Below the pieces are notes generated by a model. That model worked only from the letters and a program-made list of their open reading frames with translations. It was not told the origin of the DNA and did no database searches. Positions 2,634 through 25,826 of a stretch of DNA of 25,826 bases are shown one piece after another (the stretch's first letter is position 1; every line of letters begins with the position of its first letter). Made by a program: the position numbers and the translations under genes. Location of the stretch: positions 1 to 25,826 of IMG/VR virus record IMGVR_UViG_3300045120_000115; one strand, given 5' to 3'. This DNA comes from a virus.

Positions 2634-3356
2634 ATGAGGAAAATACTCCTTGTGATGATCGGGTGCCTACTCCTTGGTGGGCGAGCCTATGGAGCGGACA
2701 TCACACCGCCCGTAGTGAGCATTGGCCAGCCCCTTGCAGCGCTGACGTGCTCTGGTGATATTATCGACCTCGTTGCGAGCGCCACTGATGACGTAGCGGT
2801 GGCGAGCGTACAGTTCACCGTTGACGGAGCAAACGTCGGCAGTGCCGTGACAACCGCTCCGTATGTAAGTGTCTGGAACACAACGCTGGTCAGCAATGGC
2901 CTCCATACCCTCACCGCCATAGCCAAAGATCTGGCGGGCAATACCACCACAAGCACGCCGATCACCGTCACGGTCAGTAATCCCGGCACTGTCCAAATTT
3001 ACACACTCACCGTGACCAAAGCAGGTACCGGGACAGGAACAGTCACAGGACGGGATCTCAACTGTGGGATTACATGCAACGCTGGCTTTACCAACCTTGA
3101 GGTGGCAACTCTGGTCGCCACGCCAGCGGCGGGCTCGACGTTTGCGGGCTGGAGTGGAAACCAAGATTGCAGTGACGGTGCGGTGACGATGACCGTAGAC
3201 AAGACCTGCATTGCCACCTTTACAGCAACAGCGCCAGTCATGCCGATGGTGTTCAATATCACTGGTGTGGTGCAGGTCGATAAGAATGGCAACAGCGTAT
3301 TTGACGGGTGCGCGGTGGACCAGTGCCTTCCCTTCAACGTGCAGGTCGCGCCATAA
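2634..3356 (+). CDS. Secreted Ig-like plus InlB B-repeat protein
   Basis: A 240-residue protein. I place the start at the ATG at 2634, preceded by AAAGGAAC, because it opens a clear Sec signal peptide (MRKILLVMIGCLLLGG, cleavage near AYGA). The longer frame from 2571 would bury this peptide. Residues about 24-115 resemble a bacterial Ig-like fold (TPPVVSI, ATDDVAVASVQFTVDG, LTAIAKDLAGN). Residues about 121-200 form one divergent InlB B-repeat: LTVTKAGTGTGTVTG, AGSTFAGWSG and a closing IATFTA strand. Four cysteines sit in the same places as in the repeats of the next gene, which suggests disulfides formed outside the cytoplasm. A short acidic tail (DKNGNSVFDG) ends the protein. It lies 12 bp before the next secreted gene, probably cotranscribed. 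It may be a host-derived adhesin-like module; the function is unknown. Confidence 0.8.
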   Translation: MRKILLVMIGCLLLGGRAYGADITPPVVSIGQPLAALTCSGDIIDLVASATDDVAVASVQFTVDGANVGSAVTTAPYVSVWNTTLVSNGLHTLTAIAKDLAGNTTTSTPITVTVSNPGTVQIYTLTVTKAGTGTGTVTGRDLNCGITCNAGFTNLEVATLVATPAAGSTFAGWSGNQDCSDGAVTMTVDKTCIATFTATAPVMPMVFNITGVVQVDKNGNSVFDGCAVDQCLPFNVQVAP

Positions 3357-3368
3357 GGAACACTCCTC

Positions 3369-5819
3369 ATGAAAAAAATACTCTTTGTTCTTCTCTTTCT
3401 CCTTTGCAGTACAACCGTACATGCAGCGGGCAGGGTCTTCACTGATGGATTTGAAGACGGCAATACCAACAAATGGCTCGACGATGGACGAGGGAAAATT
3501 CCTATCGTGACCTCCTCCGTGGACGGCATTGCGGGGCCGCATAGCGGGACACACATGGCAGGGGCGAACTTTACTGGCAACAATAGTTTCCCCGGACTCG
3601 TACTCAATACTGACGTGCTCTACAACAATGAGTTATTCCTCCGCATGTGGGAACGCCCGGATGGGGATATCCACCAGGGAGACGAGGGCTCTGGATGCTC
3701 CTTCAAACTGCTGCGGTTCTTTTTTGCAGAGGGCACGACTTATCATGACTACTATACGGTGGCTGGGCATCCAATGGAGTCGTTTACCTCAGCCGGGAAC
3801 GCCTGGACCAATTCACAGTTCCCTACCTATTGGGGAGGTGCGGCGGGCGATCACACGAACAACAAGAGTAGTTGGCATAAAGTGGAAATGTACGTTAACC
3901 AGTCCGCCGGCATCTTCCGTGTCTGGCATGATGGGGTGATGATCCAGAATAATACGGGCTACGACTTCCACGGGGTGAAATGGACGCCGTTCTACATCCA
4001 GTCCAACGGCGATAACTGCGGCATTACAAATAACCATTGGTATCTGGACGATTTTGAAGTGTTTTCTGATACGGGCAGCGGGGCAACGGGCCTGATGAGT
4101 GATGCCTCTATTGCTCAGTCCACGGGACCGGACACGACACCACCGACCGTTAGCAGTGTGAGCCCGACGAATGGCGCAACAGGTGTGTCTCTCACCGCTA
4201 ATGCGGTCGCCACGATGTCAGAAGACATTGACGCCGCGACTGTCACCACAAGTACAGTCGAACTCAGGAATCCCTCGAACACGCTCATCACGTCTGCTGT
4301 CAGCGAGAGCAGCCCAGGCGTGATTACGCTCAACCCCAACGCCTCCCTCCTGCCGAGCACGGTGTATACTGCGAAGGTGATCGGCGGTGCCAGTGGTGTC
4401 AAAGACGTAGCAGGGAACGCGCTGGCCTCCACCTTTACGTGGACCTTTACCACGATAGCGCCAGACACGACGCCTCCCACCGTGAGTACGGTGATGCCAG
4501 CGAACGGGGCCACCAATGTCTCGACTACTATTGCACCCACGATCACGTTTAGTGAAGCGATGGACCCGGCGACGATGACGACGGGGACTGTTGAGATTCG
4601 TAGCTCTCCTGGGAGTGTCCAAGTGCCGATCACACCAACCTACAATGCGGCAACGAACACTGCCACGTTGACCCCTACGTCTCCGCTCTCGCTGAACACG
4701 ACCTATAGTGCCAGGGCCATCAATGGTGCGAGTGGGGTCAAAGATGTTGCGGGCAATGCCTTGGCCTCATTGTTTAGCGCAAGTTTTACGACCACGAACT
4801 CCACGAATGATGTGAGTCTAGGGCTGCAAACTGTGGGCGGGACCTTCGACGATGGTGACAAGAACTTCATGAACGGCTCGAAAGTCACTACCGTCACAGG
4901 TGGGACCGTCGCTTCGATGTCGGTGTACGTCGGTCCCATCGATGCCACTGCTGCGAATAGAAAGTTTCAATTCGGGATCTACACCAACAACACGGGGACG
5001 GGGAAACCTGATACCCTTGTGGCGCAGAGTGTCGAGGGCACGCTGGTTGCCAATAGTTGGAACACGATAAATCTCACCGCCACGCTGGCCCCTGCCACCA
5101 CCTATTGGCTCTTGTATAACACCAACGCGCTGACCAGTGCGTTTAATAACATGGCGTACAACACCACGTCTGCGGGCGCTGGTGTGTACAGCACGGCAGG
5201 CGTGACCTATGGCACGTGGCCGGGAACGTTTCCCGCAGCCACGCTGACGACGACAACCTACTCCCTCTATGTGACGTTCGTTCCTCCAGTTACTGGGCCG
5301 TTTGCGCTGACAGTGACGAAGGCAGGAACCGGCACCGGGACGGTGACAGCGACGGGGATTAGTTGCGGCGCGGATTGTACGGAGTCCTACGCAACCAATA
5401 CCATTGTTCCGTTGACGACGACCCCCACTTCAGGGAGTGTCTTTCTGGGCTGGTCAGGCGATGCAGACTGCGCGGACGGCTCGGTAACAATGGCAGCCGC
5501 ACGCAATTGTACGGCTACCTTTAATCTGGCTCCGCCCTCGACGTTCACGTTGACCATAACGAAAGCGGGGACCGGCACGGGAACCGTAACCGCGACCGGG
5601 ATAGCCTGCGGCGCGGACTGTAATGAGGCGTATGATTCTGGAACCGTGGTCGAAGTGATTTCTACAGCAGACGCGACCAGTAATTTTATTGGATATACCG
5701 GGACTGGCTGCACCACAGGCTCAGTCACGATGAGCGTCGATCGGACGTGTACCGCGACCTTCGATCTCAAACCGGCGAGCCTCATCAATGCAGGCCCCGT
5801 CTGTATACGACAACCCTAG
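3369..5819 (+). CDS. Large secreted multidomain protein: lectin/lyase-like, two SbsA Ig-like, two InlB B-repeats
   Basis: An 816-residue protein with a classic signal peptide (MKKILFVLLFLLCSTTVHA). Residues about 22-240 resemble a concanavalin-like or polysaccharide-lyase-like jelly roll: FTDGFEDGNTNKW near the start, WHKVEMYVNQSAGIFRVWHDG, then HWYLDDFEVFSD at the end. Residues about 255-363 and 366-474 are two SbsA-type Ig-like (Big_5) repeats, each opening with DTTPPTVS and containing GASGVKDVAGNALAS. Residues about 480-640 form a further beta-rich jelly roll (GLQTVGG, FGIYTNN, TTYWLLYN). Residues 645-720 and 726-800 are two InlB B-repeats (TKAGTGTGTVTATGI), each with four cysteines. Extracellular carbohydrate binding is plausible. 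Exported phage structural proteins of this type are unusual, because tail fibres assemble in the cytoplasm. It could instead be a cargo gene that alters the infected cell's surface. Confidence 0.82.
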   Translation: MKKILFVLLFLLCSTTVHAAGRVFTDGFEDGNTNKWLDDGRGKIPIVTSSVDGIAGPHSGTHMAGANFTGNNSFPGLVLNTDVLYNNELFLRMWERPDGDIHQGDEGSGCSFKLLRFFFAEGTTYHDYYTVAGHPMESFTSAGNAWTNSQFPTYWGGAAGDHTNNKSSWHKVEMYVNQSAGIFRVWHDGVMIQNNTGYDFHGVKWTPFYIQSNGDNCGITNNHWYLDDFEVFSDTGSGATGLMSDASIAQSTGPDTTPPTVSSVSPTNGATGVSLTANAVATMSEDIDAATVTTSTVELRNPSNTLITSAVSESSPGVITLNPNASLLPSTVYTAKVIGGASGVKDVAGNALASTFTWTFTTIAPDTTPPTVSTVMPANGATNVSTTIAPTITFSEAMDPATMTTGTVEIRSSPGSVQVPITPTYNAATNTATLTPTSPLSLNTTYSARAINGASGVKDVAGNALASLFSASFTTTNSTNDVSLGLQTVGGTFDDGDKNFMNGSKVTTVTGGTVASMSVYVGPIDATAANRKFQFGIYTNNTGTGKPDTLVAQSVEGTLVANSWNTINLTATLAPATTYWLLYNTNALTSAFNNMAYNTTSAGAGVYSTAGVTYGTWPGTFPAATLTTTTYSLYVTFVPPVTGPFALTVTKAGTGTGTVTATGISCGADCTESYATNTIVPLTTTPTSGSVFLGWSGDADCADGSVTMAAARNCTATFNLAPPSTFTLTITKAGTGTGTVTATGIACGADCNEAYDSGTVVEVISTADATSNFIGYTGTGCTTGSVTMSVDRTCTATFDLKPASLINAGPVCIRQP

Positions 5820-5828
5820 AGGTGAAAA

Positions 5829-6197
5829 ATGAAACATTTTTTTTTCTTAATTTTGCTGCTTGTTCCATCGCTGTGTTTTGGACAGGCGTGTCAATTCGCC
5901 AACTCCTATTCCCTTGGCTCGACGTTATACGTGCCCCGCAATGGCTACCTTGCTGGGCTCAACTGCCAGATCCAGAAGACGCCCTACTATCCGTTTACGA
6001 TGACCGTCCAGTACAAAGGGTCAGACACGCCGATACGATGCACTGTTGCCGGGGGCTACTGTAGTTGGTACGCCGGTACGAATGGTCAAGCAATCGCCGT
6101 GAGTGAGGGCTACACCCTCGGTATCAAAATGAATGATCCCGCGAACGCAGACGGCGCAACGGTCAACTGTATGGTACAGATACGAGACACCCCATGA
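5829..6197 (+). CDS. Small secreted cysteine-containing protein, unknown
   Basis: A 122-residue protein that starts with a strongly hydrophobic Sec signal peptide (MKHFFFLILLLVPSLCFG, likely cleaved before QAC). The ATG follows GAGGTGAAAA at good spacing. The mature part of about 104 residues is rich in Tyr, Gly and Thr and has five cysteines (in QAC, LNC, IRC, GYC and VNC), which fits a compact disulfide-bonded beta-domain. It is the third signal-peptide protein in a row on this strand. Its stop codon overlaps the next start as ATGA, so translation is coupled to the gene that begins the packaging module. I do not recognise a family. The strict coupling argues that it belongs to the phage and is not host flanking DNA. 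Confidence 0.7.
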   Translation: MKHFFFLILLLVPSLCFGQACQFANSYSLGSTLYVPRNGYLAGLNCQIQKTPYYPFTMTVQYKGSDTPIRCTVAGGYCSWYAGTNGQAIAVSEGYTLGIKMNDPANADGATVNCMVQIRDTP

Positions 6198-6430: not shown

Positions 6431-6774
6431 TGGCGAAGAAGAAAAGTGCTGTCCCGATTGACGATTTGCTAGCCGAGCACGGCGAGGATGCCCTGCGTGA
6501 TGCGATCCTCGCCACGGGACGGATGCAGCTCATGCTCGCGGTCGAAATGCTCCACACGCAGAAGTGGTGGCTCCAGAAGTTGGAGCAAGCGTTCCGTTCC
6601 CCTAAGAGCCCGATGGGTGTCTTGCTCACACGGATCATCGACAAACTGCTACCGAACGCGGGAACCCTGAAGCCAGTCACAGAGCAAGCGGACACCTTCC
6701 TAGTCACCTACGAGATGCCACCAGATGAAACGATTCATCAAGCCACTCCCAACACACAACAGAATACACTTTGA
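6430..6774 (+). CDS. Putative small terminase subunit or terminase-associated protein
   Basis: A 114-residue, mostly helical and charged protein (MAKKKSAVPIDDLLAEHGEDAL, ATGRMQLMLAVEMLHTQKWWLQKLEQAF). It begins at a TAATG junction with the upstream gene and its last 50 nt overlap the start of the large terminase in another frame. The small DNA-recognition subunit of terminase is usually encoded directly upstream of TerL and is of about this size, which is the main reason for the call. I see no convincing helix-turn-helix, so a neighbouring unrelated small protein is also possible. The C-terminus is Gln/Thr/Asn-rich and probably disordered. Confidence 0.45.
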   Translation: MAKKKSAVPIDDLLAEHGEDALRDAILATGRMQLMLAVEMLHTQKWWLQKLEQAFRSPKSPMGVLLTRIIDKLLPNAGTLKPVTEQADTFLVTYEMPPDETIHQATPNTQQNTL

Positions 6775-8194
6775 TAAGCGCCAGGTGATTGCGCTTGTTG
6801 GTCCCTGGGGCTCCGGCAAGAGCACCGTATGCGCCGTAGAACTGGCTGTACACTGTTCAAAGTACAAGTGTGATGGTTTGGTTGTCCGCGACACGTACCC
6901 TGCTCTAATCGACTCCTGCTGCGCCAAATGGGAGGAACTCTTTGAAGGGCTGGGTGAGATGAACTGGGGGCCACCGCCGACGTGGTATTGGACGAACGAA
7001 CTCCGGGACCGCAAAGTCTTGTTCCGCTCTGCGCAGGATGCAGAGGACATCCAGAAATTTGGAAGTGTGGAAGTCGGGGCCGCATGGTTAGAGGAAGTTA
7101 CACCCGGACTACTGCCCGGTGGACAGCTAAACATTGGCATGGCACCTGAAGTGCTGGGCGGTGTATTTGGACGCATGAGAAAATGGCATACGCATGATAA
7201 CACCCCGGACTGCTCGACCGTACCCGGGGAGGCGTGCGATCATCGGAAGTTGCTTATTAGTGCGCTACCGCCGCCCAGCACTAAGCATTGGTTTCATAGC
7301 CTCTTTTATGACAAACGGGCACTCAACCGAGGGCTCTCCGATGAGCAAAGTAATCTATTTGTCTCGCGCAGTGGTCTCTATCGACTCACGCCGGAAGAAA
7401 ACAGCAAGAATCTTCCCCCCGACTATTACACCTTGCAGGCTGCTTTTCTTACCTCAGAAGACCAAGTGCAACGGTTCCTCAGAGGAGAAGTTGGTTCCGG
7501 TTATGGTAAGGCCGCGATCTATGGCGACCAATGGAACGATGCGTTGCACATCAACGATAAGATTGTCCCATCTACTGGCCCTATGGTTATTGGCGTTGAC
7601 GGCGGTATGGATGCTAGCGCTGTGTTCCTACAAATTCAGCCGAGCGGACGATGCTACATCCTGGGGGAACTCCCCACTCAGGGCCTTGGCCTCGAAGACT
7701 TCGCCTACGCCGCGTTGCAATACGGCGGCCTTAACTTCGGGCAACGTAGTTACCAGGTCTGGTGTGACCCGTCCATTTTTTCTCGTGGACCAGACGGGCG
7801 CAGTGCTGCAACCCACTTGCAAGCCGGAGGACTTATCGCTCGTCCCGGACCACAAGACCCCAAGATAAGAATAGGCGCTGTCCGTACGTGGCTGTCGCGC
7901 TTCGGCTCGCTGGGACCGATAGTCCAAGTCCACCCACGGTGTGAGATGATTATCGAGGGGTTCAGAGGCAGCTACCATTGGAAGATAGCCGGGGGTGTCC
8001 CGCTCATTGGGAAGCCGGACAAGAACGAGTTTAGTCACCCGCACGACGCGCTCCAGTATCCGCTCGCTGGTCTCCTCCGCAAAGCAGAGACCGGCGAGGG
8101 CCAGAAGTTACCAGCGATCAATCCTGACATCCTTGGCCGCGTGAACAAACCAGCGATCAACCTCTCGCGCTTTACCCGTAGGCCCCCCTCATAG
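6725..8194 (+). CDS. terL: Terminase large subunit (TerL), ATPase-nuclease
   Basis: A 489-residue DNA-packaging motor that docks on the portal and translocates and cuts the genome. The Walker A loop is GPWGSGKST at residues 26-34. A Walker B-like strand with its acidic pair is AAWLEE at 119-124. The C-terminal RNase H-like nuclease shows GVDGG (Asp292), WCDPS (Asp348) and HPHDALQYPL (Asp441), the expected three acidic positions. The length is normal for a phage TerL. The first ATG gives a 50-nt overlap with the preceding gene and has no good Shine-Dalgarno sequence, so translation probably depends on coupling. The next in-frame Met is at residue 79, beyond Walker A, so the start at 6725 is forced. 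The portal follows after 11 nt. Confidence 0.93.
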   Translation: MKRFIKPLPTHNRIHFDKRQVIALVGPWGSGKSTVCAVELAVHCSKYKCDGLVVRDTYPALIDSCCAKWEELFEGLGEMNWGPPPTWYWTNELRDRKVLFRSAQDAEDIQKFGSVEVGAAWLEEVTPGLLPGGQLNIGMAPEVLGGVFGRMRKWHTHDNTPDCSTVPGEACDHRKLLISALPPPSTKHWFHSLFYDKRALNRGLSDEQSNLFVSRSGLYRLTPEENSKNLPPDYYTLQAAFLTSEDQVQRFLRGEVGSGYGKAAIYGDQWNDALHINDKIVPSTGPMVIGVDGGMDASAVFLQIQPSGRCYILGELPTQGLGLEDFAYAALQYGGLNFGQRSYQVWCDPSIFSRGPDGRSAATHLQAGGLIARPGPQDPKIRIGAVRTWLSRFGSLGPIVQVHPRCEMIIEGFRGSYHWKIAGGVPLIGKPDKNEFSHPHDALQYPLAGLLRKAETGEGQKLPAINPDILGRVNKPAINLSRFTRRPPS

Positions 8195-8205
8195 TACAAG
8201 GGAGT

Positions 8206-10155
8206 ATGCCAGCACCAGATCCCGGTTCCGACATCCATCGCAAGTTGCTCACACTGATACGGAGCCGTCTCCGCAACTCAGAGGACGTGCTCAGCGCACG
8301 TCAGGAGAAGTGGAGACGCTCAGAGCGCTCCTACCGTCTCTTTGTCGATCCGTCCGAGGTGATGAACACGAGCGACGGAACTACCTCAGACCCTGAGTTA
8401 CTCCATCCCTACCCTACTTCTATCGTGGTTCCTCTCAGCTACGCGCTCACACAGACGCTCGTGAGTTTCTGGCTCACGCTGTTCACGAACAACCGTCCAT
8501 ACTTCATGATCGACCCAGCCGACCAGAACTCAGAGATGGCTGCCAAGAGCCAGGAACTCTTGCTCACCTACCAACTAGATCATGTTGGATGGGTGCCAAC
8601 GCTCTACCAAGCGCTCGTGGATGCCTGCCGCTACGGGATCGGCATCATGTCCAACACCTGGGAGGTGACACACCGCATCCAGACCACACGGCAGACAATC
8701 GCGATGCCTGGACCGGTGGGGCCGATTCAGATTCCCATTACCCAGCAGCAGCAAGTGCTGGAGTACGAGGGCAACATGGTGGACATCGTAGACCCGTTCA
8801 CCTGGCGACCAGACCCGCGCTGGCCATCGGCTCGCTTTCAGCGTGGCTCCTTCTGTGGCGAGACCATGTGGCGTTCGCTCATCGAACTGCGCCGCAAGCA
8901 GGATGAAGGCATCTACAGCAACATCGACCAAATCTCGCGCTATACCGCCGAGCATATGAAGGAGGATCAGTCAGACCGTGACCGCATCTCTGGGATGAAC
9001 AGCAGATACGGCTTCAGTGTCAACGAACCCAACGACGCGCTTGTGATGGTAGAGCCGCTCATCGTTGACATCGTGCCCGACGACTATCTACTCTCGCCCA
9101 GTCAGTCAGTGGAGCGCTGGCTCATTGTCTGTGCCAACCGCTCCATTATTATCCGGGCGGAACCCTATCCGTATGACCATCAGGATTTCAACTACACGAC
9201 GCTCGAAAGCAGCATGGATTTGCACTCCTTGTCGAACCCTGGGTTAATTGAGATCATGGAGCCGATGCACCAACACATTAGTTGGTTCATCAACAGCATG
9301 ATCGAGAACGCTCGCAAGTCGCTCAATGACCGTGTGATCTATGATCCTTCCATTGTGAACATGGACGACGTGATGAACCCGAGCGCAGGGAAGGCGATCC
9401 GGCTCACACAAGAGTATTGGGGAATCCCCGGTGCAGTCGATCAAGGCGCACGCCAACTCAAGGTGGAAGACATATCGAAACAGAACATGTCACATGTGGG
9501 CTTTCTTATCGACCTACTACAACGGGTCGCCGCAGCGAACGAAACTCTGCAAGGTCAGCCGACCCCGGAGGAAAAGACTGCAACGGAAATTAGCTCTATG
9601 GCGAATCAAGGCTCCGCTCGCCTACGAACCCAAGCAAAACTGTTTTCTGCTACCGGCTTGGTCCCTCTGGCTCGTCAGATGGTACAGAATAACCAGCAGC
9701 TCATGACCCAGCCGACCTACCTCAAGATCATGGGCAGCCTCGCCACGACCTACCCTGGCGTCGGCTCACAAAGTGGGATCTCCATCAGCCCAGAGGACAT
9801 TCAAGGGCTCTTTCAATTCCCGGTTAGCGATGCCAGCCAGCCGCTTGACCCCGTGCGCTACGCTCGTACCTGGGTGCAGATCATGCAGATGTCGATGTCG
9901 AATCCAGCCATCGCGCCGCGTGTGAACCATCTCGCAGTCTGGGCAGAGACCTTAAAGTCGATGGGCATTACCGACCCGTCGAAATTCATCCTGCCCCAGC
10001 AGGTCCAGGTCATGCCCGATCAGCAAGTGCAGCAGCAGGTGCAGCAAGGGAACCTCGTCCCGCAGCAACCAGGCGGCGCACCTCCTATTCGTGCTCCGAT
10101 CCCCGCTCAGCCACAAATGCAGAGTGTGAATGGAGAAGAGAATCGTCCACATTAA
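8206..10155 (+). CDS. Portal protein
   Basis: A 649-residue protein directly after TerL, preceded by AAGGGAG. It forms the dodecameric ring through which DNA enters and leaves the head. The sequence has the usual features: an N-terminal helical part (IHRKLLTLIRSRLRNSEDVLSARQ), an early YRLF, PLSYALTQTLVSFWLTLFTNNRPYF, and a central wing and stem region (ISWFINSMIENARKSLNDRVIYDPS, VDQGARQLKVEDIS, TPEEKTATEISSMANQG). The last 60 residues or so are Gln/Pro-rich (QQVQQQVQQGNLVPQQPGG) and would form a flexible tail or extended barrel, as in podovirus portals of 600-700 residues. The assignment rests on size, position and these motifs. Confidence 0.88.
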   Translation: MPAPDPGSDIHRKLLTLIRSRLRNSEDVLSARQEKWRRSERSYRLFVDPSEVMNTSDGTTSDPELLHPYPTSIVVPLSYALTQTLVSFWLTLFTNNRPYFMIDPADQNSEMAAKSQELLLTYQLDHVGWVPTLYQALVDACRYGIGIMSNTWEVTHRIQTTRQTIAMPGPVGPIQIPITQQQQVLEYEGNMVDIVDPFTWRPDPRWPSARFQRGSFCGETMWRSLIELRRKQDEGIYSNIDQISRYTAEHMKEDQSDRDRISGMNSRYGFSVNEPNDALVMVEPLIVDIVPDDYLLSPSQSVERWLIVCANRSIIIRAEPYPYDHQDFNYTTLESSMDLHSLSNPGLIEIMEPMHQHISWFINSMIENARKSLNDRVIYDPSIVNMDDVMNPSAGKAIRLTQEYWGIPGAVDQGARQLKVEDISKQNMSHVGFLIDLLQRVAAANETLQGQPTPEEKTATEISSMANQGSARLRTQAKLFSATGLVPLARQMVQNNQQLMTQPTYLKIMGSLATTYPGVGSQSGISISPEDIQGLFQFPVSDASQPLDPVRYARTWVQIMQMSMSNPAIAPRVNHLAVWAETLKSMGITDPSKFILPQQVQVMPDQQVQQQVQQGNLVPQQPGGAPPIRAPIPAQPQMQSVNGEENRPH

Positions 10156-10168
10156 CAGGAGGTGACAT

Positions 10169-10354
10169 ATGGAAAGCCTTGTCTCGCTGGTCATTGCGCT
10201 TATCATCGTCGGTGTCTGTCTCTATCTCATCGAACTGTTACCGATGGACGCAACGATAAAGACCATCATTCGCGTGATTATCATCCTCGTTGTGATACTG
10301 TGGCTGCTTGGGATGCTGGTTGGGTATGCGCCGCTGCACCTGGGACTCCATTAA
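10169..10354 (+). CDS. Small two-helix membrane protein (Thivi_2564-like), possible holin
   Basis: A 61-residue protein with two transmembrane helices (residues about 4-23 and 33-52) joined by the short polar turn PMDATIK. A near-perfect Shine-Dalgarno AGGAGGTGA stands just before the ATG. The pattern of helix, LPMDxxIK and helix ending WLLG matches small phage and bacterial membrane proteins that I know as the Thivi_2564 family. Class II holins also have two helices, and no other holin candidate is visible in the window. However, this gene sits between portal and scaffold, far from the endolysin. A holin role is therefore possible but not shown. Confidence 0.7.
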   Translation: MESLVSLVIALIIVGVCLYLIELLPMDATIKTIIRVIIILVVILWLLGMLVGYAPLHLGLH

Positions 10355-11589: not shown

Positions 11590-12765
11590 ATGGCAATTCT
11601 AGGCTTGCGTGGTGTGGGGAATTTCGCGACGAACGAACATCCCCAGAATTGGCGGGAGGGCATCCTCTTTTATTATCCAAACGGGGAGACGCCCCTCATG
11701 GCAATTTCGAGCCAGGGCAAGTCGGAACCCACAGACAGTTACATTTTCAACTGGTGGGATAAGTCGCTTCCTACCAGGCGCGTGTTCGTGAACAACGGCG
11801 CAGGCTACAACACCTCGGCGACGACGATTGTGATTGACGATGGCGCTGCGGGAACAGCCAGCACCCATTTCCATAACGGGATCGTCGTGATGAACGAGCG
11901 CACGTCAGAGCGTATGATTGTGACGGCGAACCCGACCACTGACTCTCTGACCGTTGCTCGCGGCAAAGGCGCAACCCCTGCGCAGGTCATGCAAGACAAT
12001 GATGCGTTGCTGATTATCGGCACAGCCTATGAAGACGGCGCGACTGCTGTGAGTGGTATCAGCTACGACCCGACGCAGCGCTTTAACGTGACGCAAATCT
12101 TCCAACGTGGCGTGGGGCCACTGACCCGCAGGATGGCAAAGACCACGCTCCGCACTGGCGACAAACTGCTGGACATGAAACACGATGCGTGGCTCTCCAT
12201 GATGCTCGACTGTGAATGGTCGTCCCTCTTCGGTGACTATCTGGATGAAGCAGGCTCCTCCTCAGCCGTGCGTCGATCCTTCTCCGGTGGCATGACCTAT
12301 TTCGTCCAGACGAACGTTTTTGACGGTGGTGGCGCGGTCTCCTACTTTGAACTCATGGACATGCTTGAAGACGTGTTCAGAGTCGGCAGCTCTGAGAAGA
12401 TGGCATTCGCGGGCTCAACCTTCGTGAACGTATTGAACAAACTCGCCAAACTGGAGATGGTCATGAACTCCGTACCGGGGGAACAATCCTTCGGTATGAA
12501 GATAGTTGAGATCCTCACTCCCTTCGGAACCCTCTACCTCAAACTACACCCGTTGCTCTCAGACCATCCACTCTACCGCTCGTGGGCGTTCGTCGTGGAC
12601 ATGGCAAACTTCGTCGTCAGGTACATTGACGATGTGATTTATCTTCCCTTCAACGACGTGAGCAACCCGCATCGCCGACAAGATGAGTACTACGGCGATC
12701 TTGGCTGGGAGTGGCAGATTGAAAAGAGCCACGCGATTCTGAAGAATTTTACTACCGTCATCTAA
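11590..12765 (+). CDS. Major capsid protein (SU10-type, DUF5309-like)
   Basis: A 391-residue HK97-fold capsid subunit that polymerises around the scaffold to form the head. The ATG follows GAGGAGTAG. Recognisable segments are the N-terminal LGVGNF-like start (LGLRGVGNF), NVTQIFQRGVGPLTRRM, the helix KLLDMKHDAWLSMMLDCEWSSLFG, and the C-terminal strand region ending EWQIEKSHAILKNFTTVI. The form WQIEKSHAILKNF is close to the conserved end of the SU10 major capsid family. Its own leader with a hairpin separates it from scaffold, in keeping with the much higher copy number that the capsid needs. Confidence 0.88.
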   Translation: MAILGLRGVGNFATNEHPQNWREGILFYYPNGETPLMAISSQGKSEPTDSYIFNWWDKSLPTRRVFVNNGAGYNTSATTIVIDDGAAGTASTHFHNGIVVMNERTSERMIVTANPTTDSLTVARGKGATPAQVMQDNDALLIIGTAYEDGATAVSGISYDPTQRFNVTQIFQRGVGPLTRRMAKTTLRTGDKLLDMKHDAWLSMMLDCEWSSLFGDYLDEAGSSSAVRRSFSGGMTYFVQTNVFDGGGAVSYFELMDMLEDVFRVGSSEKMAFAGSTFVNVLNKLAKLEMVMNSVPGEQSFGMKIVEILTPFGTLYLKLHPLLSDHPLYRSWAFVVDMANFVVRYIDDVIYLPFNDVSNPHRRQDEYYGDLGWEWQIEKSHAILKNFTTVI

Positions 12766-22527: not shown

Positions 22528-24285
22528 ATGGCCGAGAATTTTATTCCCTCCGCGCTAGGACAGCCAGGTCAAACTGATGACCCGCAGAAAGCAATGGCAG
22601 ATGCTGTTGCTGCGTACAAAGCGCTTGTAAATGACCCCGGCTTTGCTGCACTCCCAGAGGATCGGAAAGGGATGCTCGTCCGTGCGGCGAATGATCGCCT
22701 CCAGTTGGCCGGTGCAGCGCAGCGCTCATTCGTCGGGGCTCCAGCGCCGGCAGCGAATGCAGCGAGAGAACTCACGCCTGCCGTTGGGGGATTACTTGCA
22801 CAGCAGAGTGACCCGAATGCGCCAGCACGTGACATTGACTTGAAACAGATGGCGAAGCAGTCATGGCCGGGAATGGTGGGCTCTCTCGGTGGTCAACTCC
22901 TCTTGGCACGCCTGGGTATGGGGCCAGCCGCTCAGGGCCTCGGTGCTGCAGTCGGTGGTGCAATGGGTGAGGGCGCAAGCCAGCTCACAGGCAATAGCCC
23001 GGTCAGCCCGACCTCGTTGTTACTTCAACTCTTGCCTGCTCTCCCTAATGCGGCCCTGAGTGGGAAGAAAGAGTTTGGCCGTGCTAGGGCGTCGATGAAC
23101 CCCGCGACTCCTGCTGCCATCGCAGAGGATGCACTGAAGACACAGGGAAATATCGCGCAACGCTTTGCTCCGGTGGAATCGAGTGAGAGTCAGTTTGGCA
23201 AGGTACAAGTTGACCCTGAGTATAGAGCGATTACCGCTCTTCCTCTGGAAACGAAAGAGAGGGCAGTTAGCCCACATGAATACTTTCCCCAACCAGAAGA
23301 ACCTGTCTGGAGTGAACATGGAACTCACGTTCTGACAAACCGCCTCGCCCCTCAAGATCAACATATTCCATTGCCAAGAGTTGACCCTATTGTCTCTGTC
23401 AGTGATAAATTTATACGTCCCATTGAGATGACGAACGCACACGTCATCATGCAGAATGTGAAGGACTACGTAGCTCGCGTTGCGCCACAGATGGGACCGC
23501 TAGGCAAAGAACTTCAGTCCGATATGTCAGCGCTCAACGTCTCCCCCACTATGAACGTAGAAGGAATAGACACCGCATTGAAACGTCTTAATAACTGGCG
23601 AGGGCCGACCGGAGCGGGGCTTCCTCCAGATGTCAAGCAACAGATTGGTAGCCTCCATAGCGCTATCTGGGATGACGTAATGACCTCTCCCCTCGGCCCA
23701 CAGTTTAAGGACGCTTATCACGCATACAAGCGTGAACTCGTGGTCGGCCATGTGCAAGACGTGGTGGACGCCGCGACCCATGACTTCGGCGGGGTGACTG
23801 GTATCCCGAACATGGATTCTCTAGCCGATGCCTTACGCCGGACGCGGAAGCAAGAGCAGGTGATGCACGATCCTTCTACGCCGTCGGCTCAGGGAGGCCC
23901 AGGCGTGGTGCCTGAGGCAGAATGGCAAGCGCTGCGAGAGGCGATGGTCCCAGCCCAACGAGAACAGAAAGTATGGACTAGAGGAAACAACAACCTGTCT
24001 GGTTCGATGATCCCGACCATGACAGGCTACCATGCTGGACAAGCGATTGCTGGCCCTCTTGGTGGGCTCGCAGGTGCTGAAGTCGCGAACCAAGGAGCAA
24101 GTCTGTTCCGTCGTCATATCATGGATAAGTCATTAGCAACCCCGACCGTTAGACAAGGACTGCTTGATGCGATCCGACAACCCATCACAGGAAACGTCTT
24201 TACTGCGGCGAGTCCGGCAGTGATGGAGGGATTAGCACAGTACCTCCGCGATAAGATGCAGCGTGAGAGCGGGCAAGAACAATAA
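22528..24285 (+). CDS. Ejection protein with glycine-zipper membrane segments
   Basis: A 585-residue protein, 1 nt after the previous stop. The N-terminal helix (AMADAVAAYKALVNDPGFA) is followed by a hydrophobic Gly/Ala-rich region at about 112-180 (GSLGGQLLLARLGMG, GLGAAVGGAMGEGAS, then SLLLQLLPALPNAALSG). A second such region lies at about 490-530 (GYHAGQAIAGPLGGLAGAEVA). Both have G-x3-G spacing typical of glycine zippers in podovirus pore or ejection proteins. Between them is a soluble, mostly helical domain (NVKDYVARVAPQMGPLGKEL, KRELVVGHVQDVVDAA). Its last 86 bp are also the 3' end of the opposite-strand PEP-CTERM gene. The ejection role is inferred. Confidence 0.63.
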   Translation: MAENFIPSALGQPGQTDDPQKAMADAVAAYKALVNDPGFAALPEDRKGMLVRAANDRLQLAGAAQRSFVGAPAPAANAARELTPAVGGLLAQQSDPNAPARDIDLKQMAKQSWPGMVGSLGGQLLLARLGMGPAAQGLGAAVGGAMGEGASQLTGNSPVSPTSLLLQLLPALPNAALSGKKEFGRARASMNPATPAAIAEDALKTQGNIAQRFAPVESSESQFGKVQVDPEYRAITALPLETKERAVSPHEYFPQPEEPVWSEHGTHVLTNRLAPQDQHIPLPRVDPIVSVSDKFIRPIEMTNAHVIMQNVKDYVARVAPQMGPLGKELQSDMSALNVSPTMNVEGIDTALKRLNNWRGPTGAGLPPDVKQQIGSLHSAIWDDVMTSPLGPQFKDAYHAYKRELVVGHVQDVVDAATHDFGGVTGIPNMDSLADALRRTRKQEQVMHDPSTPSAQGGPGVVPEAEWQALREAMVPAQREQKVWTRGNNNLSGSMIPTMTGYHAGQAIAGPLGGLAGAEVANQGASLFRRHIMDKSLATPTVRQGLLDAIRQPITGNVFTAASPAVMEGLAQYLRDKMQRESGQEQ

Positions 24286-24928
24286 GCAGCAGGCCAGAGC
24301 CCATGAGTATCAGCGTGCTCGGCTCTGGATTCTCCGTCACCTCAGGCCCATTTCCCCACACTACATTGCTGAGCACCGGGGCAGGAAGGACAGGATTGAT
24401 ACCCTCGGACGAGAAGAATTGCGTCTCACGAGCAAACAGATTCCACAGATGATGCCCAGGTTGGGCGCGATCCCAGTCCGAGAACATCCCAATAGCAATC
24501 GCGCATGGCTCCAAGCATACTTGGTTATAAGGCCATACCAGCATAGAAATCTCACCATAGGTACTATAATCCGGGTCGTCATTCTCTGTCAGAGTGACAT
24601 GGAAGGTCAGGGGATCTTCGGGGCTTGGGACGAACGCTTGCCAGAAGATCCCACGCTCCGGCAGGGTAATGCCATCCGTCAGATTCCCGCGCTCTGGAGC
24701 AAAGAGCGGATCGCCGACCGGGAATCCACGATAGCCCCAGTGAAAGTCGAAGAGTGTCATGGTGTTGACTGCTGCCCCTTCTGACTCGCCCCAATCAATC
24801 CCGAATGCCACGCCTCCTTGTATGGGGCCAGCCTCATCAATAGGCCGAAGGTCCCAACTCACATCAAACGAGAGGGCATGACTGAATGAGGGGAACAGCA
24901 GCACACATACCAGGATGAGGACTACCAT
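24200..24928 (-). CDS. PEP-CTERM (exosortase) sorting protein encoded in the phage lysis operon
   Basis: A 242-residue protein read from the ATG at 24928, with AAGGAG 8 nt upstream (24937-24942). It has an N-terminal signal peptide (MVVLILVCVLLFPSFSHA), with no basic residue in the n-region. At residues 201-222 it has a PEP-CTERM tail: PEPSTLILMGSGLL, continued hydrophobic to residue 219, then Arg220. In known systems the exosortase recognises this tail at the inner membrane and the proteins go to the surface or exopolysaccharide. Here 20 residues follow the usual end. The middle, about 19-195, is a beta-rich unknown domain (LSFDVSWDLRP, TMTLFDFHWGYRG, LTFHVTLTENDDPDYSTYGEI) of the kind seen in other PEP-CTERM proteins. 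It overlaps the endolysin stop by 7 nt. A membrane-anchored lysis factor is an alternative. No exosortase gene is in the window. Confidence 0.83.
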   Translation of the reverse strand: MVVLILVCVLLFPSFSHALSFDVSWDLRPIDEAGPIQGGVAFGIDWGESEGAAVNTMTLFDFHWGYRGFPVGDPLFAPERGNLTDGITLPERGIFWQAFVPSPEDPLTFHVTLTENDDPDYSTYGEISMLVWPYNQVCLEPCAIAIGMFSDWDRAQPGHHLWNLFARETQFFSSEGINPVLPAPVLSNVVWGNGPEVTENPEPSTLILMGSGLLLIVLARSHAASYRGGTVLIPPSLPDSPQ

Positions 24929-25389
24929 TGTTCTAACTCCTTGTCGGTTGGGTAGCGATTGTTTGCCATCATGAAGGACAGGCGCTTTGCACGGATGCCC
25001 ACCTGTCCCGCCCATTTGCTTTTCATCATCTGCGTAGACGCCGTCACATAGTCACCACCTTTGATAGCTGCCAAGGTCGCAGTGAATTTCTTGAGCCCGG
25101 CAAGGCCCAGGTTAAAACACATGTCGATGAGGACGCGCTGGCGGATCTCGGACAGTCCATAGAAAAATGGCAAGAAATTTTTCAGCTCTATTTGCGCTGT
25201 CATAATGTCATGGTCAAGGAGAGAATACGCCTCATATTTTGTGAGGCCATTCGTGATGAGGTTTCTTCCAACTCCGATGGTAGGATAGCCAATCAAAATT
25301 TTCCCTGGTTTCAGTGGTTCCCCTGTCGCGTCGTCATACACGACCAGCCGCAGCCCCTCATGCAAGATGAGTTGGTCTTCGAGTGTCAT
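24922..25389 (-). CDS. Endolysin, GH24 T4-type lysozyme
   Basis: A 155-residue peptidoglycan hydrolase. I use the ATG at 25389, which is preceded by GGAGGAG and overlaps the upstream stop as ATGA. The frame reaches 25461 but the extra residues lie within the neighbouring gene. The catalytic triad of the family is visible: Glu11 (LHEGLRLVVYDD), Asp20 and Thr37 (PTIGVGRNL), with an 11-residue insertion between Asp and Thr compared with T4 lysozyme. The C-terminal lobe is typical (MCFNLGLAGLKKFTATLAAI, SKWAGQVGIRAKRLSFMM). There is no signal or SAR anchor, so a holin should be required for export. It is cotranscribed with the PEP-CTERM gene. Confidence 0.92.
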   Translation of the reverse strand: MTLEDQLILHEGLRLVVYDDATGEPLKPGKILIGYPTIGVGRNLITNGLTKYEAYSLLDHDIMTAQIELKNFLPFFYGLSEIRQRVLIDMCFNLGLAGLKKFTATLAAIKGGDYVTASTQMMKSKWAGQVGIRAKRLSFMMANNRYPTDKELEQW

Positions 25390-25826
25390 AGCTCCTCCAT
25401 TGGATGCAGAGTATCCTGGGGAACGCAGAAGGCAGGCCGCCCCTTCGCGACATCCCTCCACCAGTCTTGTCGTTTGCCTTCACGCCCTGTGATCCAGCCA
25501 CGCAGTGTGAACCTCGGGGCATCATGCGAGAGCACGAGGATAAACTGGTCATCATCTGCGTCAGTGGGGTGCAAGAGCAGGTCGCCCCAGTCGCGGCTGC
25601 TCGTCCGCACTTGCAGATGTCCAACGTCTCGTGCGCTAAAGTCTCCCATCGCCCCGTCCCAGAAATGCCCGAGCCACTTGGCCACCGCGAGTTCCCCGCA
25701 CGCACCGTCACAGTTTATCTGCCAACCCACCTCTGCGTTGTTCACGCCATAGCGTCCGGGTTTCTGCACGCCTTTGACATGGCGAGAGACCCCGACGAGA
25801 CCAGCGTAAAACAAGTTGTGGGGTGT
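25386..25826 (-). CDS. Conserved phage hypothetical protein, possibly nuclease-like, 5' truncated
   Basis: At least 146 residues remain open to the window edge. A TTG at 25814 is a possible start, but the residues before it (TPHN) also look coding, so the true start is probably outside. The core reads GVNNAEVGWQINCDGACGEL, AVAKWLGHFWDG, ARDVGHLQVRTSS, HPTDADDDQFILVLSHD, FTLRGWITGREGKRQDWW, and ends FCVPQDTLHPM. I recognise this style from recurrent phage and metagenome hypotheticals, but not a named function. A Glu in GEL, an Asp in DVG and QVR could be a degenerate PD-(D/E)XK core, as a guess only. It overlaps the endolysin by 4 nt. Confidence 0.7.
   Translation of the reverse strand, partial: TPHNLFYAGLVGVSRHVKGVQKPGRYGVNNAEVGWQINCDGACGELAVAKWLGHFWDGAMGDFSARDVGHLQVRTSSRDWGDLLLHPTDADDDQFILVLSHDAPRFTLRGWITGREGKRQDWWRDVAKGRPAFCVPQDTLHPMEEL

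Follow-up and report, generated by a model that had tools for sequence, protein, structure and literature searches.

Why should a tailed phage encode, in overlap with its endolysin gene, a protein that ends in a PEP-CTERM tail? The exosortase system that reads such tails is one by which host cells deliver proteins to their surface and matrix, for example in floc and biofilm formation. The gene in question lies in a 25,826-base stretch of DNA (the window), which is a full IMG/VR record classed as a virus record and is not necessarily an entire phage genome. The terminase, portal and capsid genes identify the contig as that of a tailed phage (Table 1). A sequence-only reading of the locus had proposed that the phage uses the host exosortase to place its own protein in the envelope or matrix late in infection, where it might block competing phages, alter the matrix or aid lysis.

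Table 1 Features of the window and of the phage contig that carries an exosortase gene.
Feature	Position	Strand	Basis and remarks
Terminase large subunit	6725..8194	+	phrog_2, 73 bits; marks the contig as tailed phage
Portal protein	8206..10155	+	PF23899, 78.5 bits
Major capsid protein	11590..12765	+	Nearest: Caulobacter phage Kuura, Roseobacter phage CRP-810
Convergent phage gene, 585 aa, no assigned function	22528..24285	+	86 bp overlap with the 3′ end of the PEP-CTERM gene
PEP-CTERM protein gene, 242 aa	24200..24928	-	Body without known relatives, between a hydrophobic, signal-peptide-like N-terminus and the PEP-CTERM tail
22-residue C-terminal extension and stop	24200..24268	-	On the strand opposite the final part of gene 22528-24285
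PEP-CTERM sorting tail (PEPSTLILMGSGLLLIVLAR)	24269..24328	-	TIGR02595 and phage-tail HMM
Signal-peptide-like segment (MVVLILVCVLLFPSFSHA)	24875..24928	-	Sequence, hydropathy, lipobox scan
GH24 endolysin	24922..25389	-	PF00959 (Phage_lysozyme), 37.4 bits; phrog_7 endolysin
ORF146 (phrog_18407, function unassigned)	25386..25826	-	Upstream in the endolysin/PEP-CTERM unit; gene cut by the contig end
PEP-CTERM and exosortase gene pair	L144 1459-2633 = IMGVR_UViG_3300020061_000007 54443-55617	Same as integrase, adjoining	4-nt overlap
Exosortase, 171 aa	L144 1459-1974		PF09721, 124.5 bits; TIGR04178, 68.2 bits (cut-off 23)

The gene and its sorting tail

A Shine-Dalgarno sequence, AAGGAG, lies 8 nt upstream of the ATG of the PEP-CTERM gene, and the start overlaps the endolysin stop by 7 nt (ATGGTAG, read from the sequence). 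Both features, and the assignment of the neighbour to the GH24 endolysins, are as the sequence-only reading had them. In a codon model trained on the other window genes, the frame contains no stops and scores +0.10 to +0.14 bits/codon; the antisense ORF 24263-24784 scores -0.09 bits/codon, and the model prefers the PEP-CTERM frame. The protein has only two membrane-type hydropathy peaks, at residues 1-15 and 205-219. The body between the signal-like segment and the tail reaches a maximal 15-residue hydropathy of 1.37 and thus holds no membrane segment. By sequence and hydropathy, the N-terminus combines a hydrophobic core with a cleavage-like SHA site, after which signal peptidase I would likely cut, yet no Lys or Arg occurs in residues 2-8. 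A scan of the 242 residues for a lipobox found none. No relatives of the body were found in viral contigs, GenBank phages, the PDB or, by exact-pattern scan, GTDB genomes, and the AlphaFold model of the protein alone has a pLDDT of 38.

The tail matches TIGR02595 over residues 201-220, with 18.5 bits in the protein scan and 21.1 bits in the genome-wide search (cut-off 16). The PEP motif occupies residues 201-203 and the helix peak residues 205-219, with a mean hydropathy of 2.49, and R220 follows, which is the succession of PEP, hydrophobic stretch and Arg that had been proposed. The model check suggested at the same time came out divided, in that PF07589 gives the tail 20.4 bits, just under its gathering score of 20.7, which is a threshold of the model and not a biological feature. 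An HMM was built from 67 other phage tails, with the window's own left out, and gives the window tail 30.4 bits. In 1.64 Mb of DNA from phages related by endolysin or capsid, a true PEP-CTERM gene in G082 alone scored higher with this HMM (42.6 bits), and the next unrelated stretch reached 12.8 bits. None of 20,000 shuffles approached the score of the window tail. A chance origin of the tail is thus excluded.

The window protein is atypical at both ends. Lys or Arg in residues 2-8 is present in 66 of the 67 other phage PEP proteins. The distance from PEP to the end is 42 residues, against a median of 26 among phage homologues, one of which has 46, and two basic residues follow the helix (R220 and R227), against a median of four in the other phage PEP proteins. 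The codon score of the C-terminal extension, -0.16, resembles that of non-coding DNA. Judged from these features, a serious alternative is that the gene is decaying, or that an acquired gene was recently fused to a new 3′ end.

Lineage and gene neighbourhood

Within the lineage of the window the gene is accessory, since a tail above the cut-off occurs in one of 80 capsid relatives. None of four related isolates has such a tail, and no TIGR02595 match was found in 44 endolysin-related records. Lineage-wide conservation of a PEP gene might be read from the portal and capsid genes common to the window and the PEP-bearing set; the survey of the 80 capsid relatives rules it out.

ORF146, the endolysin gene and the 242-aa ORF run on the minus strand, convergent to the structural genes, and relatives of ORF146 are found in replication-type gene blocks. 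Neither observation supports the late timing, or the aid to lysis, that had been suggested for the protein.

Three signal-peptide-like proteins are encoded in the window directly upstream of the terminase (2634-3356, 3369-5819 and 5829-6197), two of them with Big and InlB-B-type repeat domains. At 10169-10354 the window encodes a Thivi_2564-family (NF041949) membrane protein of 61 aa, which is related to proteins of four other phage contigs with PEP genes. For host inference, the window was searched for tRNAs and the viral contigs for a close relative of the terminase, and none was found. A defence-system search gave no match, and promoter and terminator scans remained at background level.

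PEP-CTERM genes and an exosortase in other phages

IMG/VR was scanned with the degenerate pattern PEP-x-[ST/A]-L-xxx-G-x-G-L, which yielded 98 loci in as many viral contigs, a lower bound because the pattern is narrow. The full-length ORFs number 84, of which 67 are non-redundant at 90%, and they fall into 33 body families. Lengths of ~200-250 aa, signal-peptide-like N-termini and basic C-termini are each found in nearly all of the proteins. Two or three PEP-CTERM genes share one locus in twelve cases. By the phrog_2 family alone, the large terminase was detected in 20 of 50 PEP-bearing records, in 8 of them at most 2 kb from the PEP gene; at least a large share are therefore phage genes rather than host flanks. 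The proposal that the window encodes a phage PEP-CTERM protein, upheld by the TIGR02595 and HMM scores and by the tailed-phage contig, thus extends to a recurrent class instead of a singleton.

The PEP genes of other phages adjoin terminase, portal, capsid or integrase genes, and an HTH small-terminase-like gene, the PEP gene and the large terminase gene recur in this order. No lysis family stands beside them among the matches listed (25 top neighbour families). A search for homologues beside endolysins had been suggested; no homologue of the window protein body occurs in viral contigs, and endolysin adjacency was seen at the window only. Position is what argues for a lysis role, and the wider class speaks against lysis as its general function, which is not supported. 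At several loci (L069, L088, L090, L094, L125 and others; clusters 4 and 6), a PEP-CTERM protein, a DNSLPG-repeat protein and a predicted lipoprotein are encoded between the small and large terminase genes. The body of another PEP-CTERM protein (L133 3804-4556) resembles, judged by eye, a C39-type peptidase (WYHGCSPTAVGMVLGYWD), and enzymes may accordingly be found among phage exosortase substrates.

The predicted structure of the largest phage family, of fair confidence (pLDDT 82), is an all-β domain flanked by two terminal helices, and a fold search with this model returned nothing significant. A conserved-peptide search of 84,980 GTDB genomes identified one relative of the family, a Roseococcus protein whose tail is a variant of VPAPA type and whose genome also encodes an exosortase. 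The one representative of the family that was compared by tblastn with ~50,700 GenBank phage records had no match. The bare consensus tail also returned nothing from GenBank phages, which is a weak test with so short and low-complexity a query. No description of the phage class was found in the open-licence literature, to which most subscription journals do not belong.

One contig, IMGVR_UViG_3300020061_000007 (61.7 kb), carries an exosortase gene in overlap with a PEP-CTERM gene (Table 1). Its N4-gp56 capsid protein scores 235 bits and its P22-type portal 118.9 bits; with genes also for a tyrosine integrase and for a repressor weakly similar to DicA, it is a temperate phage. The exosortase motifs SCAG, NVVR and HQGAG fit C-x-G, N-x-x-R and H-x-x-x-G, and all six residues invariant in EpsH are retained (Haft et al. 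2006, PMC1569441). Relatives of the enzyme were found in no other viral contig and in none of the ~50,700 GenBank phage records. That neither the exosortase nor the largest-family representative has a match in GenBank phages may explain why the class has so far escaped notice. With the models used, no exosortase was detected in the other 97 PEP-bearing records, which would therefore rely on a host exosortase. The same contig encodes exported proteins similar to the three that precede the window terminase, and a 1709-aa tail-fibre-like protein with an apparent signal peptide (MKSRIVALLVLLLAFAVPLHAADTQ) at its start (L251 18170 onward; contig position 38170).

Phage-encoded exosortase substrates are well supported as a class. 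The use of exosortase that had been proposed for the window phage is supported at this level, most strongly by the coupling of an exosortase gene to a PEP-CTERM gene in one phage and also by the exosortase in the Roseococcus genome; for the window phage itself, we infer the use of a host enzyme.

Proposed role, alternatives and known systems

As a whole, the locus is best explained, in our modestly confident view, by an exported, exosortase-processed accessory protein that alters the cell surface. The 242-aa protein would be exported via Sec and held in the inner membrane by the PEP-CTERM helix; a host exosortase would cut at the PEP site, and the cleaved protein would be released to the outer surface or the exopolysaccharide layer. 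Export, anchoring, cleavage and display are proposed because they follow the established PEP-CTERM/exosortase model. Once displayed, the protein would most likely change the surface of the infected cell to the advantage of the phage, and superinfection exclusion or receptor masking would be the likeliest form of such a change. The window protein is probably an exosortase substrate. Superinfection exclusion as the actual benefit is a doubtful conjecture, although modification of the surface against competing phages would fit an accessory, exported protein. Against the exosortase reading count the few basic residues, the 22-aa extension and the missing basic n-region, as well as the rarity of the tail in the lineage and the lack of a body homologue.

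The unusual n-region and the read-through tail, together with the accessory status of the gene and a body without phage relatives, would also suit a host PEP-CTERM gene that was captured recently and is decaying as a useless passenger, its stop lost into the neighbour gene and its n-region damaged. We consider such a passenger unlikely: the ORF is intact, with a strong Shine-Dalgarno sequence, a positive codon score and a start tightly coupled to the endolysin gene, the exact-pattern scan of GTDB genomes found no cellular relative, and the class is conserved across diverged phages. The coupling could instead point to a lysis-cassette protein, a periplasmic, inner-membrane-anchored, spanin-like helper made with the endolysin, in which the PEP-CTERM likeness would be incidental or vestigial. 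Small membrane genes mostly follow related endolysins, a putative N-terminal export signal and a C-terminal membrane helix are in place, and the extra C-terminal residues could form a cytoplasmic tail. However, the protein has no lipobox and so is not a unimolecular spanin, no spanin or holin match was obtained with PHROG at E 0.1, the tail scores far above chance, and in other phages no lysis family adjoins the PEP genes among the matches listed, all of which makes a lysis helper quite improbable. A virion or tail-associated protein, with terminal hydrophobic segments that serve assembly or entry, is very improbable: the PEP-CTERM gene and the structural genes are on opposite strands and we know of no virion role for a PEP-CTERM sorting tail, even though other signal-peptide-like proteins precede the window terminase and PEP genes occur in late operons of other phages.

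Returning to the exported, exosortase-processed protein, a broader proposition is that uncultivated phages whose hosts have an exosortase exploit the PEP-CTERM/exosortase system as a rule, to display proteins of their own on the infected or lysogenised cell, that one temperate phage or more supplies the exosortase itself, and that the window gene is a member of this set; we regard its truth as evenly balanced. Phages that encode exosortase substrates, and once the enzyme, would exploit a dedicated Gram-negative protein-sorting pathway. If so, they would offer a testable link that joins phages to changes of the cell surface and to the aggregation of environmental bacteria, and the enzyme with its substrate would form a pair that is small and tractable.

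With the bacterial PEP-CTERM/exosortase system (EpsH, XrtA; Haft et al. 2006, PMC1569441), the window protein has in common the signal-peptide-like N-terminus, the PEP motif, a hydrophobic helix of ~14 residues, an Arg after the helix and a body without homologues. It differs in being encoded by a phage, in its weak basic cluster, in the 22 further residues and in that the same genome carries no exosortase. Like unimolecular spanins such as T1 gp11, it has a C-terminal membrane helix, a putative N-terminal export signal and a gene that adjoins the endolysin gene, whereas it has a PEP-CTERM motif and neither a lipobox nor a family match. The T5 lipoprotein Llp and P22 SieA, examples of the envelope proteins by which phages exclude superinfection, are likewise small accessory phage proteins directed to the envelope; compared by description, these proteins reach it by a lipoprotein signal or by integral membrane segments, whereas the window protein carries an exosortase tail.
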